A stretch of 40,803 nucleotides of DNA, taken from assembly GCA_913057645.1 (NCBI GenBank), contig CAJXOU010000027.1, positions 1-40,803 on the forward strand, written 5' to 3'. Both the position numbers and the translations under genes were made by a program. This document shows, one piece after another, positions 19,461 to 25,706 of the stretch. The notes below the pieces were generated by a model. It made no database searches. It worked only from the letters and a program-made list of their open reading frames with translations, and had not been told where the DNA came from. The DNA comes from an uncultured Rhodobiaceae bacterium. Its GTDB lineage: Bacteria > Pseudomonadota > Alphaproteobacteria > Parvibaculales > Parvibaculaceae. Each line of letters starts with the position of its first letter. The first letter of the stretch is position 1.

Positions 19461-20285
19461 TCACACCGGAAGTTGTAGCGCCTCAACCAGCGCCCGCACC
19501 TCCGCGCGCGCTGCAACGTGAGACATGGACATCTGGGTTTCGACGCCCTCTTCCCTCAGATCGAGCAATGTCAGGCCTGACGGGAACATCTCCCGGAAAA
19601 TGACGCGTTCACCAAATCCGGGGCCGCTGCGAAAACCGATCCGGTCCGCTAGCGCAGTGAGGACCGCCTCGACCCGCCGTTTGTTCTTCGCGTCGAGGTG
19701 CGACAAGCGGTTTCTGACGACAATCCAGTCAATCTCTCCGCCATCTCGCACAGCACGCCGCTTGCGGCTTTCCCAGACCATTTCACTGTAAACGCTGGGT
19801 CCCTTGATCCGATAGGTCTGGGGATCAACCCGGCCCAGCAGATCGAAATCGACAAAACTGTCGTTCATCGGCGTGATCAGCGTGTCGGCCCGGGCATGAC
19901 CGAGCCGCGAGAGATAGCTGTCACTTCCCGGGCAATCTATGACGAGAAAATCGTTTTCGGCCGCAAGACGCTCGATAGTCGCATCGAGCTCCGCTTCCTC
20001 GGCAGCATTCGCCTCTGTAACAGTGTCCGCCGCAGAACGCGTAAGGACCGCATGATCGGGCATGACAAGATTGACGTTGGCAGCCTCGGCCCATGCTTTT
20101 CTATTCTCGACATACCTGGTGAGCGACCTCTGCCGCCCGTCCAGGTCGATCGAACCGACCCGAAACCCCGTTTGAAGCAGATACGCGATGACGTGCATTG
20201 CGGTGGTCGTCTTCCCCGAACCACCCTTTTCATTTCCAAGCACAATTACGTGGGCGGGCACACGTTCCCGCAAGACGTCTGTCAT
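19461..20285 (-). CDS. mipZ: Division-plane positioning ATPase MipZ
   Basis: This ParA/MinD-family ATPase of 274 residues forms a gradient from the ParB-bound origin and blocks FtsZ assembly away from midcell. Visible landmarks are HVIVLGNEKGGSGKTTTAMH (deviant Walker A), VGSIDLDGRQRSLTRYVENR, VIDCPGSDSYLSRLGHARAD, and the MipZ hallmark TPMNDSFVDFDLLG, all aligning well with Caulobacter MipZ. The frame is open to 20405, but the ATG at 20285 gives the normal short lead (MTDVLRERVPA) before the P-loop. It converges with the SPOR carboxypeptidase, and its promoter lies next to that of the glutamine-synthetase-like operon. Confidence 0.93.
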   Translation of the reverse strand: MTDVLRERVPAHVIVLGNEKGGSGKTTTAMHVIAYLLQTGFRVGSIDLDGRQRSLTRYVENRKAWAEAANVNLVMPDHAVLTRSAADTVTEANAAEEAELDATIERLAAENDFLVIDCPGSDSYLSRLGHARADTLITPMNDSFVDFDLLGRVDPQTYRIKGPSVYSEMVWESRKRRAVRDGGEIDWIVVRNRLSHLDAKNKRRVEAVLTALADRIGFRSGPGFGERVIFREMFPSGLTLLDLREEGVETQMSMSHVAARAEVRALVEALQLPV

Positions 20286-20504
20286 AAGCCCCGCCAACTC
20301 CCGCCAATACGACAATAACGGTCGAATCGCGCGGAGTTTGGGTGCTGGCACCTCAAGCGTCAACCGCGCCGCGCGTTCCCGTCCAGTGACTTGACGTAAC
20401 GCCACTTGCAGCCTCCCCCGTCCCTGCGGCTACACTCAGGAGACACGACAGGCGGGGCGCCGGAACATTGCTGCCCTCCCCCCATTTTGGCGACAACATC
20501 CGGG

Positions 20505-21881
20505 ATGTTTCGAATGAACGGCATGCTCACCCTCGACCAGCTCTCCGATCTTGTCTCTGCCGGCGAAATCGACACCGTCGTCATGGCGATGCCCGACATG
20601 CAGGGACGGCTGGTAGGGAAACGGATGGCCGCCCCGTTCTTTCTCGATACCGGCGTTCATGAGACACACGCCTGCAATTATCTGCTGACCGTGGATACCG
20701 ACATGGAGCCCGTGCCGGGCTACAAGGCGGCAAGCTGGGCGCAGGGCTATGGCGACTTCGCGTTGAAGCCCGATCTTTCGACACTCCGCCGCATTCCGTG
20801 GCTGCCCGGCACCGCGCTCGTCATCTGCGACACGGTCGACCATCATGGCGAGGACATACCGCACGCGCCGCGTTCAATTCTCAAGAAACAACTGAAGCGC
20901 GTCGCCGCCATGAAAATGAAGGCTTTCATGGCCTCCGAACTGGAGTTCTATCTCTTCGACGACAGCTATGAGAGCGCTCACGAAAAGCGGTATCGCGACC
21001 TGAAAACCCCGAACTGGTACATCGAGGACTACCACGTCTTCGCCACCAGCAAGGAAGAAGGGATCATGCGGGCAATCCGCACCGGGCTCGAAAATGCCGG
21101 TATTCCGGTCGAAAATTCAAAGGGCGAATGGGGGCCCGGACAGGAAGAAATCAACGTCCGTTATGCCGAAGCCCTGGAAATGGCGGATCGGCATACCATC
21201 CTGAAAAACGGCATCAAGGAGATCGCCTGGCTTCACGGTAAGGCCGTGACCTTCATGGCGAAGTGGAACTATGAACTCGCCGGTTCCTCCTGCCACATCC
21301 ACATGTCGCTATGGGACGAAAAGGCCAAGGCTGCCCACTTCTTCGAGGAAAAATCGGAGCCGCACGGCATGTCGGAGCTTTGCCAGAACTTCCTGGCCGG
21401 GCAGCTTCGGCACGCGCGCGAACTCACTTACTTCCTTGCGCCCACGGTCAATTCCTACAAGCGTTTCGTTGACGGCTCCTTTGCCCCTACCAACATCGTC
21501 TGGTCGAACGACAACCGCACCGCGGGCTTCCGCATGTGCGGACGGGAAAAGAGCCTGCGCATCGAATGCCGCATTGGCGGCGCGGATCTCAACCCCTATC
21601 TCGCTTATGCGGCGCTGCTCGCCGCGGGCGTCGCCGGGGTCGAACAGAAACTGTCGCTGGAACCCGAGTTTTCCGGAGACGCCTATGGCGGAGCAGGCAT
21701 TCCCTCGCTCCCGAAGAGCCTTCGTGACGCACTTACAGAACTCGAAAAGTCGGATACGCTCCGCGCCGCTCTCGGAGAGGATGTCGTCGAGCATTACCTC
21801 CACACCGGCCGCTGGGAGCAGAAGGAATACGAGCGCCGTGTCACGGACTGGGAACTGATGAGAGGATTTGAACGCGGATGA
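20505..21881 (+). CDS. Glutamine-synthetase-family ligase (gamma-glutamylamine synthetase type)
   Basis: The 458-residue protein is an ATP-dependent glutamate-amine ligase of the glutamine synthetase fold. It has the GS beta-grasp start (IDTVVMAMPDMQGRLVGKR), ASELEFYLF with the metal Glu residues, GPGQEEINVRYAEAL, the ammonia/ATP-site block SSCHIHMSLWD, and NRTAGFRMCG with the Arg residues. KRMAAPFFLDTG and the length fit the PuuA/gamma-glutamylpolyamine synthetase branch rather than ordinary GlnA. The ATG at 20505 is one of three close candidates (20514 and 20523 also possible). Its stop overlaps the aldehyde dehydrogenase start (ATGA), so it likely starts a three-gene catabolic operon. The amine substrate is unknown. 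Confidence 0.88.
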   Translation: MFRMNGMLTLDQLSDLVSAGEIDTVVMAMPDMQGRLVGKRMAAPFFLDTGVHETHACNYLLTVDTDMEPVPGYKAASWAQGYGDFALKPDLSTLRRIPWLPGTALVICDTVDHHGEDIPHAPRSILKKQLKRVAAMKMKAFMASELEFYLFDDSYESAHEKRYRDLKTPNWYIEDYHVFATSKEEGIMRAIRTGLENAGIPVENSKGEWGPGQEEINVRYAEALEMADRHTILKNGIKEIAWLHGKAVTFMAKWNYELAGSSCHIHMSLWDEKAKAAHFFEEKSEPHGMSELCQNFLAGQLRHARELTYFLAPTVNSYKRFVDGSFAPTNIVWSNDNRTAGFRMCGREKSLRIECRIGGADLNPYLAYAALLAAGVAGVEQKLSLEPEFSGDAYGGAGIPSLPKSLRDALTELEKSDTLRAALGEDVVEHYLHTGRWEQKEYERRVTDWELMRGFERG

Positions 21882-23272
21882 CCGAAGGCCTGAAAATCAT
21901 ATCCCCGGTCGACGGCAGTGTTTACGCCGAAAGGCCATTGGCCGACTGGCCGGAAGTCGACGGCACACTCGCAGCAGCCAAAGCCGCTCAGGCGGCCTGG
22001 AAACTTGTGCCCGTCGCCGAACGTGCATCGCTGTGCCTCCGCTTCGTCGAGGCATTCCTCGCAATGAAGGACGAGATCGTACCCGAACTCGCCTGGCAGA
22101 TGGGGCGCCCCGTCGCTTTCGGCGCGGGCGAACTCAAGGGCTTCGAGGAACGCGCCCGCTACATGATCGCGATAGCCGGAGATGCCCTCGCAGATATCGA
22201 CGCAGGCCCGAAGGAAGGATTCCGGCGCTGGGTCCGTCGCGAGCCCGTAGGCACCGTGCTCGCCGTCGCCGCGTGGAATTTTCCCTATCTCATCGCGGTC
22301 AACTCGGTCGTTCCCGCCATCATGGCGGGCAACTCCGTCATATTGAAGCATTCGGGCCAGACAGCGCTTTGCGCCGAGCGTTTTGCCATGGCCTTCGCAA
22401 AGGCTGGCGCCCCGGACGGCCTCTTTCAGGTTCTTCATATGAGCCACGAAATGACGGAGCGCACGATCGCCGACCCGCGCACAAGCCATGTGGTTTTCAC
22501 CGGCTCGGTGTCGGGCGGCCACGCCGTGGTGCGCGCCGCCGCCGACCGCTTCATCGATATCGGGCTCGAACTGGGCGGCAAGGACCCGGCCTACGTCCGA
22601 AAGGATGCGAACCTTCCCTTCGCCATCGAGAACCTCGTCGACGGCGCCTATTTCAATTCCGGCCAGTCCTGCTGCGGCAAGGAACGGCTCTATGTCCACG
22701 CCGACGTCTTTGATGACTTCGTCGAGGGCTTCGTGGACCTGACGAAGAAATACAAACTCGGAAGTCCCCTCGATCCCGACACGACGATCGGCCCCATGGT
22801 CCGAACGTCGGCGGCAACCTTCGTGCGCAGCCAGATCGAGCAGGCAAAACGCGCAGGCGCGCGGGCGTTGATTGGAGAAACGCATTTTCCCGCCTCGAAA
22901 GCCGGCACGCCCTATCTCGGCCCGGAAGTCCTCGTCGACGTGAACCACCAGATGGACGTGATGCGGGATGAAACCTTCGGTCCCGTCATCGGCATCATGA
23001 AGGTGACCTCGGATGAGGAAGCCATCACGCTGATGAACGACAGCCCTTACGGTTTGACAGCCTCGGTCTGGACCGAAGACGACGAAGCGGGGGAGAAGAT
23101 CGGCGAGCAGATCGATACCGGTACCTTTTTCCTCAACCGTTGCGACTATCTCGATCCCGCCCTCGCCTGGACGGGCGTAAAGGATACCGGCCGTGGCGCG
23201 ACGCTTTCGCGCGTCGGCTACGAACATCTGACCCGGCCCAAGAGTTATCACCTGAGAACCAGAACCAAATGA
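21878..23272 (+). CDS. NAD(P)-dependent aldehyde dehydrogenase
   Basis: The 464-residue protein has the ALDH fold and motifs: AAWNFPYLIAVNSVVPAIMAG, VVFTGSVSGGHAV for the dinucleotide, the general-base Glu in LELGGKDPAYV, the catalytic Cys in NSGQSCCGKERLYV, and ETFGPVIGIM near the end. ATGA overlaps at both ends couple it to the ligase before it and the alcohol dehydrogenase after it. In that setting the probable substrate is the aldehyde of a gamma-glutamylated amine or amino alcohol. It is somewhat shorter than the 490-500 residues of many ALDHs. Confidence 0.92.
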   Translation: MTEGLKIISPVDGSVYAERPLADWPEVDGTLAAAKAAQAAWKLVPVAERASLCLRFVEAFLAMKDEIVPELAWQMGRPVAFGAGELKGFEERARYMIAIAGDALADIDAGPKEGFRRWVRREPVGTVLAVAAWNFPYLIAVNSVVPAIMAGNSVILKHSGQTALCAERFAMAFAKAGAPDGLFQVLHMSHEMTERTIADPRTSHVVFTGSVSGGHAVVRAAADRFIDIGLELGGKDPAYVRKDANLPFAIENLVDGAYFNSGQSCCGKERLYVHADVFDDFVEGFVDLTKKYKLGSPLDPDTTIGPMVRTSAATFVRSQIEQAKRAGARALIGETHFPASKAGTPYLGPEVLVDVNHQMDVMRDETFGPVIGIMKVTSDEEAITLMNDSPYGLTASVWTEDDEAGEKIGEQIDTGTFFLNRCDYLDPALAWTGVKDTGRGATLSRVGYEHLTRPKSYHLRTRTK

Positions 23273-24447
23273 TCGACACGTATCCGAGCCTTGCCGGCAA
23301 CTGGAATTTCCCAACCAAGATGCGTTTCGGGCCGGGACGCATCAAGGAACTGGCCGAGGCATGCGCGACAGCGGGGATAAACCGCCCGCTTCTCGTAACC
23401 GATCCTGGACTGAAACCCCTGCCCATGATCGCGGATGCCCTGGCGCTACTGGAAGGCAACGGCATTCCGCCCGCGCTCTTCACGGACGTTCATCCGAACC
23501 CGGTCGGCGCCGATGTGGAAAAGGGCCTCAAGGTCTTTCGCAACGGGAAGCATGACGGCGTCATCCTGATTGGCGGCGGCAGCGCGATGGACGCAGGCAA
23601 AGCCATCGCCTTCATGTCCGGGCAAACACGGCCGATCTGGGACTATGAAGACCGCGAAGACTGGTGGACCCGCGCGGACCCGAAGGGCATTGCGCCTGTA
23701 ATCGCCGTTCCGACCACGGCCGGCACGGGCTCCGAAGTGGGCCGGGCCGCCGTCATCACGGATGAAAGCGACCACACGAAGAAGATCATCTTTCATCCAA
23801 AGATGATGCCTGTGGACGTCATTTGCGATCCGGAACTCACCACCGGCCTTCCGCCGCACATAACGGCGGCGACGGGCATGGATGCCCTGTCCCACAATCT
23901 CGAAGCCTGGTGCTCGCCCTTCTGGCATCCGCTGGCTCAGGGCGTGGCGCTCGAAGGCATGCGGCTCTGCAAGGAATGGCTCCCGGAAGCGACAAAACGC
24001 GGCAGTAATATCGAGGCGCGCGCCTTCATGATGGCGGCGTCATCCATGGGCGCAACGGCCTTCCAGAAGGGCCTTGGCTCGATGCACGCCATGAGCCACC
24101 CCTGCTCGTCCCTCAGAGGTACCCACCACGGCCTCACCAACGCCGTCGTGATGCCCTACGTCCTCGTCCACAACAAGGCGGCAATCGACGAAAAGCTGAC
24201 CGCTGCCGCGCGTTACCTCGGGCTCAAGGACCAGAGCTTCGGGGGCTTCGTGGACTGGGTACTCGCGCTCCGCGAAGAGGTCGGCATTCCGAACACGCTG
24301 AAAGAGATCGGCGTCGACGGGGACATCATCCCGGAAGCAGCCGCCATGGCGCTGGAAGACCCGTCGAACGGCGGCAATCCGGTTCCGATGACCGTCGCCG
24401 CCTACGAGGCGCTCTATGCCAACGCGATAGAAGGCCGCCTCGCCTGA
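23269..24447 (+). CDS. Iron-type (group III) alcohol dehydrogenase
   Basis: The 392-residue protein shows the Fe-ADH layout: LIGGGSAMDAGKAIA for NAD(P), VPTTAGTGSEVGRAAVITD, DPELTTGLPPHITAATGMDALSHNLEAW, and the metal-binding His residues in GSMHAMSHP and GTHHGLTNAVVMP. These oxidise primary alcohols or reduce aldehydes with an Fe2+ or Zn2+ centre. The ATG at 23269 overlaps the ALDH stop by four bases, so the long open frame before it is not used. It is the third gene of the ligase-ALDH-ADH set and converges, 3 bp apart, on the small exported-protein gene. Confidence 0.92.
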   Translation: MIDTYPSLAGNWNFPTKMRFGPGRIKELAEACATAGINRPLLVTDPGLKPLPMIADALALLEGNGIPPALFTDVHPNPVGADVEKGLKVFRNGKHDGVILIGGGSAMDAGKAIAFMSGQTRPIWDYEDREDWWTRADPKGIAPVIAVPTTAGTGSEVGRAAVITDESDHTKKIIFHPKMMPVDVICDPELTTGLPPHITAATGMDALSHNLEAWCSPFWHPLAQGVALEGMRLCKEWLPEATKRGSNIEARAFMMAASSMGATAFQKGLGSMHAMSHPCSSLRGTHHGLTNAVVMPYVLVHNKAAIDEKLTAAARYLGLKDQSFGGFVDWVLALREEVGIPNTLKEIGVDGDIIPEAAAMALEDPSNGGNPVPMTVAAYEALYANAIEGRLA

Positions 24448-24450
24448 CCG

Positions 24451-24744
24451 TTATTGCGGGCGGCCCGGTACCCAGTTCCCGTCTCCGTCATAGTGGCCCG
24501 GAATATAACCGCCACTCTCTCCCGTTGGCGCGACGGGTGGCAACGCGCCGCCCTCCTTGTAGTAGGGCCTGACCCAGCCGCCATATCTGCTCTTGTGCCC
24601 CGGCACGAAGCTCTTCTGCTGTTCTACCTTCGGCGAAGGATTCTCGATGGTCTGCAGGGGTGGCGCCTCGGGCGAAGTCGGACCTCTCGCCCATACGGGC
24701 GACGCGACGAGAAAGATGGCCGCAATGAGAAGAATTCTGTCCAT
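24451..24744 (-). CDS. Small exported protein with PGH/WVPG motifs
   Basis: The 97-residue product has a signal peptide (MDRILLIAAIFLVASPVWA, cleavage after VWA or ARG) and a Pro/Gly-rich mature part. Two related segments stand out: FVPGHKSRYGGWVRPYY and YIPGHYDGDGNWVPG, both of the form V/I-P-G-H-(x)4-6-G-x-W-V. Similar xWVPGHW-type motifs occur in small periplasmic or outer-surface proteins of proteobacteria with no fixed function. The frame is open upstream to 24879, but the ATG at 24744 gives the signal peptide. It overlaps no other gene and its start is 95 bp from divergent panC. Confidence 0.7.
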   Translation of the reverse strand: MDRILLIAAIFLVASPVWARGPTSPEAPPLQTIENPSPKVEQQKSFVPGHKSRYGGWVRPYYKEGGALPPVAPTGESGGYIPGHYDGDGNWVPGRPQ

Positions 24745-24839
24745 GACAGCGATATAGGGTGGCCGCCGCCGGTTTCGACCGGAATTGATGTCTTTCCCTC
24801 CCCCGGCTATCTTCCGCGCGGTTTCCGGAGGACCCACCC

Positions 24840-25706
24840 ATGCCGCTCGACACCGCGAGCTATGAAATTCCCGTTGCACGTTCCGCGGGCGACCTGCGCG
24901 AAGCCGTTGCCGGCTGGCGAAAGGACGGTCTCAGCGTCGCGCTGGTACCAACCATGGGGGCGCTTCACGCCGGGCACATCTCGCTCGTGGACCTTGCGCG
25001 GGAGAAGGTGGATCGCGTTATCGTCTCGATCTTCGTCAACCCGACGCAGTTCGCGCCGAACGAGGATTTCTCGGCGTATCCCCGCACCGAAGCGGAAGAT
25101 GTCGGAAAGCTTGAAGGCAAGGCCGACCTCATCTTCGCTCCGAACGCCGCCGACATGTACCCGGAAGGATTCTCCACGACCGTTTCGCTCACCGGTGTCA
25201 CCGAATCGCTGGAAGGCACCTTCCGGCCGACACATTTCGCGGGCGTCGCCACCGTCGTCGCGAAGCTCATCCTCCGCGCCCTGCCGGATATCGCGATCTT
25301 CGGCGAAAAGGACTGGCAGCAGCTCATGGTGATCCGCCGCATGGTCGCCGATCTCGACATCCCGGTGAAAATCCTCGGCGGTCCGATCATGCGCGAGGCA
25401 GACGGCCTCGCCATGTCGTCGCGCAATGTCTATCTGACCCCGGAGGAACGGAAAGCGGCCGGGCAACTCAATGTGATCCTGCGCGAAACAGCGGATGCCG
25501 TGGCAAAGGGTACGCCGATCTCCAAGGCAACCGCAGAAGGCGGCAAACGCATCCTGGCACTCGGATTCGACAAGCTCGACTACCTGGAAGTCCGCGATGC
25601 AGCCTCGCTCGCCGCCTTCCAGGGCGACAAACCCGAAGGCTCGGCACGCATCCTTGTCGCCGCGAAGATCGGCAGGACGCGCCTCATCGACAACATGCCG
25701 GTCTGA
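24840..25706 (+). CDS. panC: Pantoate--beta-alanine ligase
   Basis: This cytoplasmic enzyme joins D-pantoate and beta-alanine with ATP to make pantothenate, the precursor of coenzyme A. Its 288 residues include VPTMGALHAGHISLVDLA (HIGH-type nucleotide motif HAGH), SIFVNPTQFAPNEDFSAYPR, THFAGVATVVAKL, FGEKDWQQLMVIRRMVADL and MSSRNVYLTPEER, all diagnostic. No panB is adjacent. It ends 8 bp before the end of the convergent alpha/beta hydrolase gene. Confidence 0.96.
   Translation: MPLDTASYEIPVARSAGDLREAVAGWRKDGLSVALVPTMGALHAGHISLVDLAREKVDRVIVSIFVNPTQFAPNEDFSAYPRTEAEDVGKLEGKADLIFAPNAADMYPEGFSTTVSLTGVTESLEGTFRPTHFAGVATVVAKLILRALPDIAIFGEKDWQQLMVIRRMVADLDIPVKILGGPIMREADGLAMSSRNVYLTPEERKAAGQLNVILRETADAVAKGTPISKATAEGGKRILALGFDKLDYLEVRDAASLAAFQGDKPEGSARILVAAKIGRTRLIDNMPV

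Follow-up and report, generated by a model that had tools for sequence, protein, structure and literature searches.

Gene Order and Predicted Reactions

What would a glutamine synthetase (GS)-like ligase do in one operon with an aldehyde dehydrogenase (ALDH) and an iron-type alcohol dehydrogenase (Fe-ADH), and why does the operon stand next to panC? The question arises in a 40,803-nucleotide stretch of DNA (the whole of it called the window below), contig CAJXOU010000027.1 of assembly GCA_913057645.1 from an uncultured Rhodobiaceae bacterium, in which the following three genes adjoin:

20514 to 21881, plus strand: GS-fold gamma-glutamyl ligase, probable ethanolamine gamma-glutamylase, 455 amino acids (PF00120, Gln-synt_C, 1.8e-102; clade placement; start set by comparison with L232)
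21878 to 23272, plus strand: aldehyde dehydrogenase, probable gamma-glutamyl-aminoacetaldehyde dehydrogenase (PF00171, Aldedh, 1.5e-119)
23269 to 24447, plus strand: iron-type alcohol dehydrogenase, probable gamma-glutamylethanolamide dehydrogenase (PF00465, Fe-ADH, 3.5e-48)

Judged by homology and genomic context, this trio is very probably the core of an ethanolamine gamma-glutamylation pathway. The ligase would join glutamate to ethanolamine at the expense of ATP, the Fe-ADH would oxidize the hydroxyl of the resulting gamma-glutamylethanolamide to an aldehyde, the ALDH would convert this aldehyde to gamma-glutamylglycine, and a final hydrolysis would release glycine and glutamate. We infer ethanolamine as the substrate, and every reaction step of the window trio, from homology and context. 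In the Puu (putrescine) and IpuC (isopropylamine) pathways an amine is likewise glutamylated and then oxidized, by enzymes other than an Fe-ADH; the PuuA-like paralogue of the window genome lies on a separate contig, C47.

Both junctions, ligase/ALDH and ALDH/Fe-ADH, are ATGA overlaps, and an earlier note on this DNA, which had described three genes joined in this way, is borne out by the coordinates and the Pfam families. Its ligase start has to be moved: the ATG at 20505 is ATA in the nearest relative, L232, whose ligase is 97–98% identical, whereas the ATG at 20514 is kept there, so that 20514 is the likelier start. Of the 40 genomes of the order, 36 match the third gene at E ≤ 1e-100. In the 30 of these loci that were compared, panC always follows on the same strand, and 29 show the ALDH; the arrangement is therefore not due to chance.

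Placement of the Ligase

The ligase scores below the curated cut-offs for glutamate-ammonia ligases of types I and III (TIGR00653, 268 versus 429 bits; TIGR03105, 253 versus 470) and below that for PuuA-type gamma-glutamylputrescine synthetases (NF045547, 224 versus 650). Its closest relatives in the PDB, 11zs (622 bits) and 5dm3 (543 bits; which we take to be the Chromohalobacter salexigens enzyme), are both labelled merely as glutamine synthetases. The GS fold and the TIGR00653 match are the features that would fit an ordinary glutamine synthetase standing next to unrelated dehydrogenases, but the match falls short of its cut-off, the alignment column of the ammonia-site glutamate (presumably Glu327) is occupied by Phe in the window and five of six aligned clade relatives and by Trp in the remaining one, contig C78 of the same genome encodes a separate type I GlnA, and the order of the trio recurs in 58 of the 67 named loci described below. 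We regard this explanation as barely credible.

A tree of 126 ligase rows (135 less 7 duplicates, L001 and L004), built by a quick method without bootstrap, places the window ligase inside a clade of 21 same-family rows with a Shimodaira-Hasegawa-like approximate likelihood ratio (SH-aLRT) support of 97, and this clade joins, with support 95, a group of five rows, some of them EtoX-linked or Eat-linked. The tree has long branches for L249 and L002, L154 was assigned to the family group by its mipZ synteny, and the G198 row (L264) belongs to the same family but lacks the family label. The GS-like ligase is thus nested among EtoX/Eat-linked relatives, and ligase, ALDH and Fe-ADH stand on one strand in the order of the ethanolamine operons. 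This nesting among transporter-linked relatives, together with a permease found before the ligase in five same-genus genomes, speaks for the amino-alcohol route that the earlier note had proposed.

Comparison with Described Operons

The earlier note's reading, amino-alcohol gamma-glutamylation via ligase, ADH and ALDH, corresponds to an ethanolamine pathway described with the same gene order (PMC10132767), and the route itself had already been published before that note. The sections of PMC10132767 that deal with Phaeobacter sp. MED193 describe a single operon with RpiR, gamma-glutamylglycine amidohydrolase (GGAH), EtoVWX, ethanolamine gamma-glutamylase (ETAGA) and two dehydrogenases, in which MED193_10046/10051/10056 are ETAGA, gamma-glutamylacetylaldehydeamide dehydrogenase (GAADDH) and gamma-glutamylethanolamide dehydrogenase (GETADH), respectively. 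According to the same sections, these three proteins were among several of the operon that increased on phosphorylethanolamine, and EtoX binds ethanolamine with a Kd of 7.9 μM; the pathway figure is labelled as predicted. They further state, citing Vetting et al. 2015, that related genes have been demonstrated in C. salexigens and A. tumefaciens. In the corresponding sections of PMC6529630, GlnA4 (SCO1613) of Streptomyces coelicolor is a gamma-glutamylethanolamide synthetase, for which later steps by a dehydrogenase, an ALDH and an amidohydrolase are predicted.

By description, the window trio has the same enzyme kinds in the same order as the MED193 operon; in MED193-like operons the ligase is 57% (Paracoccus) and 54% (Ruegeria) identical to that of the window. 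Unlike MED193, the window has no tripartite ATP-independent periplasmic (TRAP) transporter, hydrolase or regulator in the operon, and panC lies downstream. The operon of Sinorhizobium meliloti pSymB and Rhizobium leguminosarum comprises RpiR, N-formylglutamate amidohydrolase, a permease, GS, ALDH and Fe-ADH; the window proteins are 62% (ligase), 54% (ALDH) and 58% (ADH) identical to those of S. meliloti, whereas RpiR, N-formylglutamate amidohydrolase and permease are lacking. The GlnA4 cluster resembles the trio in its synthetase and its predicted dehydrogenase, ALDH and amidohydrolase steps and differs in being actinobacterial and in having its own regulator, EpuRI (PMC6529630, as far as its description goes). 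The window trio is thus probably an additional case of a known pathway, stripped of accessory genes. In one paper retrieved for Parvibaculum with ethanolamine, the sections consulted give no account of a gamma-glutamylation pathway.

Operons of Relatives

How the trio is accompanied elsewhere was read from the best 80 of at least 593 confirmed stretches, from which 13 loci with short flanks were set aside, leaving 67 named loci. The trio is present in 58 of these, and 52 of the 58 carry a transporter (29 an S. meliloti-type permease, 11 EtoX, 10 an Eat-like permease and 2 another type), with none in the other 6. An RpiR regulator stands beside the operon in 49 of the 67. The hydrolase search near orthologues that the earlier note had suggested was run, and a formylglutamate-amidohydrolase (FGase)-like hydrolase was found in 51 of the 58 trio loci. 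Similar sets occur on plasmids. Ten annotated records, out of 41 with a match, were compared, and the trio is found in eight of them (S. meliloti, R. leguminosarum, Aminobacter, two Paracoccus, Qingshengfaniella and two Ruegeria); across the ten, RpiR occurs in 7, an N-formylglutamate-amidohydrolase-like gene in 7, a TRAP transporter in 4, a permease in 2 and eat in 1. On a Thermomicrobium plasmid the ligase stands beside a short-chain dehydrogenase/reductase and eat.

Three of these neighbourhoods deserve a remark of their own. On an Aminobacter aminovorans plasmid (L050, 8004–17362), the ethanolamine-type operon adjoins bhcRABCD, annotated for glyoxylate and glycolate use, an adjacency that fits glycine as product. 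On a Paraburkholderia sabiae plasmid (L049, 1898–9377), a ligase 59% identical to that of the window occurs without either dehydrogenase and is surrounded by a C26 hydrolase, a fatty-acid-desaturase-like protein, pyridoxal phosphate (PLP) enzymes and LysE; the locus may be a biosynthetic cluster in which a gamma-glutamyl moiety serves as protecting group. In many rhizobial loci, L047 (12287–13003) among them, the trio is followed by a ParA-family gene; the ParA-like mipZ of the window is only 27% alike and lies upstream, and the resemblance is probably a coincidence.

The diversity of transporters bears on whether the same chemistry might serve another short amino alcohol (alaninol, 3-aminopropanol or isopropanolamine) or a broad range of them. 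Several transporter types fill one slot, for the commonest of which we found no tested substrate; 12 alignment columns separate the 21 family ligase rows from 103 others; and ethanolamine itself is assigned by homology and context. On the other side, the ligase is nested among EtoX- and Eat-linked relatives, and the ETHxCNYLL, GQEE and FAPT blocks are common to the family rows and the 103 others. Such a shift of substrate seems unlikely to us, and ethanolamine is the substrate that we retain.

Missing Parts and Other Points Against the Assignment

Several observations weigh against an ethanolamine pathway and are collected here, beginning with the accessory genes. A tblastn search of the window with the hydrolase, permeases, TRAP parts and RpiR that accompany known operons gave no match, and the window thus has no linked transporter, no FGase-like gamma-glutamylglycine amidohydrolase and no RpiR beside the operon, just as the earlier note had said of hydrolase, permease and regulator. 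Among the own-genome transporters read, namely two of four TRAP binding-protein matches (C12 and C1) and both amino acid-polyamine-organocation (APC) permeases (C11 and C20), likeness to EtoX, EtoW or Eat is 23–29% at best, and C1 and C20 gave no match. Ethanolamine might then be supplied by phospholipid turnover, by diffusion or by an unlinked transporter.

The note had also called the route incomplete, and for the usual hydrolase this holds genome-wide among the copies compared. A PF05013 match is present in 18 of the 20 ligase-bearing genomes examined, and the own genome has two copies (C139 and C19); high-scoring matches were compared only via L057–L066, and three weak ones were left aside. 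The operon-type hydrolases form a separate clade (support 100/97) in a tree of 33 of 34 BLAST rows, L058 (46 bits) being omitted. The C139 copy is placed outside this clade. The C19 copy (in L064 and L086) did not come up when operon-type hydrolases served as BLAST queries, and the tree does not include it. An operon-type hydrolase row is present in only five of the 20 genomes, among the copies compared (G040, G107, G117, G154 and, on another contig, G148), so that many ligase-bearing genomes seem to end the route in another way. In the window genome, too, the last step would need another enzyme, the usual hydrolase not having been found there. A candidate for this step, which might stand in for the usual hydrolase, is the PuuD-type C26 hydrolase on contig C47, which scores below the PuuD cut-off (164 versus 266) over a 230-residue stretch. 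The C47 locus (L087, 278–5663), with a PuuA-like ligase, the C26 hydrolase and an aminotransferase, is a separate locus of gamma-glutamylpolyamine type.

The family assignments and the wider sample add further points of the same kind. No NCBIfam model over its cut-off names the ligase, the ALDH (among 25 of its 44 matches) or the Fe-ADH, and the best matches of the Fe-ADH, 4-hydroxybutyrate dehydrogenase (321 versus 500) and choline dehydrogenase (260 versus 550), are both below cut-off. Of 20 loci read from a class-level draw, 10 contain the full trio by tblastn, 7 have the ADH but no ALDH directly behind the ligase, and in 3 both dehydrogenases are absent. The permease found most often in the ethanolamine-type operons, the S. 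meliloti type, is not an Eat equivalog, and the Eat-like permease of G218 scores 352 bits against a TIGR00908 cut-off of 381.75. One of the 12 distinguishing columns, column 95 (Thr for Ala), adjoins the ETHxCNYLL block. The family is not of single origin throughout: the ligase of G198 is placed in a different part of the tree, and the one in G191 is a distant relative. Finally, the adjacency of panC is not accounted for by ethanolamine use.

The mipZ-panC Site

The trio is flanked by two genes and preceded by a conserved element in the spacer:

19461 to 20285, minus strand: mipZ (probable start), upstream in divergent orientation and outside the route (PF09140, 3.9e-116)
20405 to 20436, plus strand: conserved, putative promoter-like element in the mipZ-ligase spacer, TTGCRGYCYCCCCC...GGCTACACT (comparison of loci)
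24840 to 25706, plus strand: panC, pantoate-beta-alanine ligase, downstream and conserved in this position, probably outside the route (PF02569, 3.1e-98)

An open reading frame is also predicted on the opposite strand between Fe-ADH and panC (24451–24879). In the window's own genus and in genus g2, mipZ and panC flank the trio; in g171 the trio precedes panC, with mipZ outside the short stretch compared. In five genomes of the own genus a permease separates the ligase from mipZ, of the S. meliloti type in G201, G209, G223 and G224 and Eat-like in G218. In G199, G203, G191 and G198, mipZ and panC are adjacent with no trio between them; the trio therefore looks like an insert at that site, and its linkage to panC is taken to be probably positional. 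The simplest account of the compared loci would be a single module that occupies a single site and has lost its permease in the window's Parvibaculum subclade.

The spacer element is found in all nine permease-less same-genus loci that were read over the spacer, from which its pattern was derived, and is absent from the five same-genus loci with a permease and from two without the trio; across 272 scanned sequences (2.8 Mb) the only matches are the same nine loci and overlapping copies.

Two loci depart from the common pattern. In G191 (L262, 8760–14331), an ALDH and an Fe-ADH of the trio type are found away from panC, next to an M81/MlrC-type protein and a distant GS-like ligase (34%), and the ALDH there reads as two overlapping frames. 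In G223, of the same genus, the Fe-ADH match comes in two overlapping pieces (L266, 5710–6881), and the gene may be frameshifted.

Beta-Alanine Supply to PanC

The adjacency of panC and the absence of panD raise the idea that the trio gamma-glutamylates 3-aminopropanol, or a like amino alcohol, on the way to beta-alanine for the neighbouring PanC, replacing PanD in the family. In the 30 loci in which panC follows the trio, the gap is 1–7 bp in some; the count rises to 32 of the 36 genomes with an ADH match, since of the remaining six, G226 and G223 (ADH in two pieces) are panC-linked, G190, G191 and G198 carry panC on a different contig, and in G197 no panC was matched. No panD match was obtained in the window genome, whose best dihydropyrimidinase match reaches 233 bits against a cut-off of 393; altogether 25 of the 40 genomes of the order, this one included, lack a panD match. 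The four genomes without an ADH match also fit in part: G199 and G203 have panD, G207 and G217 (88% and 57% complete) do not, and the panC contig of G207 starts with an ADH fragment.

Against this stand the mipZ-panC pair without the trio in the four relatives named above and the 7 of 7 genomes of genus g2 that have panD despite tight spacing. In the class sample panD shows no association with the ligase (3 of 22 ligase-bearing genomes versus 33 of 190 overall), and panC is near the ligase in none of the 18 class loci read outside the own family. A permease accompanies the trio in same-genus relatives, and we know of no cellular source of 3-aminopropanol. As far as PMC7142369 treats the matter, panD is rare in Alphaproteobacteria, and R. 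etli uses a uracil route, so the missing panD is nothing special here. Both the mipZ-panC pair and the missing association with panD thus tell against the idea, which we consider distinctly improbable; that the trio has been recruited to coenzyme A supply in Parvibaculum and its kin, with gamma-glutamyl-beta-alanine yielding beta-alanine for PanC in place of PanD, appears a shade less probable still. Apart from this, only 3 of the order's 40 genomes have a dihydropyrimidinase match above the cut-off, and for most of the 40 neither panD nor dihydropyrimidinase accounts for the supply of beta-alanine.

Implications

If the trio acts on ethanolamine, as its relatives suggest, two gaps come into view: the enzyme that would release glycine from gamma-glutamylglycine in genomes without the usual hydrolase, and the source of beta-alanine where panD and dihydropyrimidinase are both missing. 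The loci compared show the transporter slot of the operon to be exchangeable and dispensable, and the ethanolamine gamma-glutamylation pathway would extend to Parvibaculum and its family, in keeping with the ADH match in 36 of the 40 genomes.

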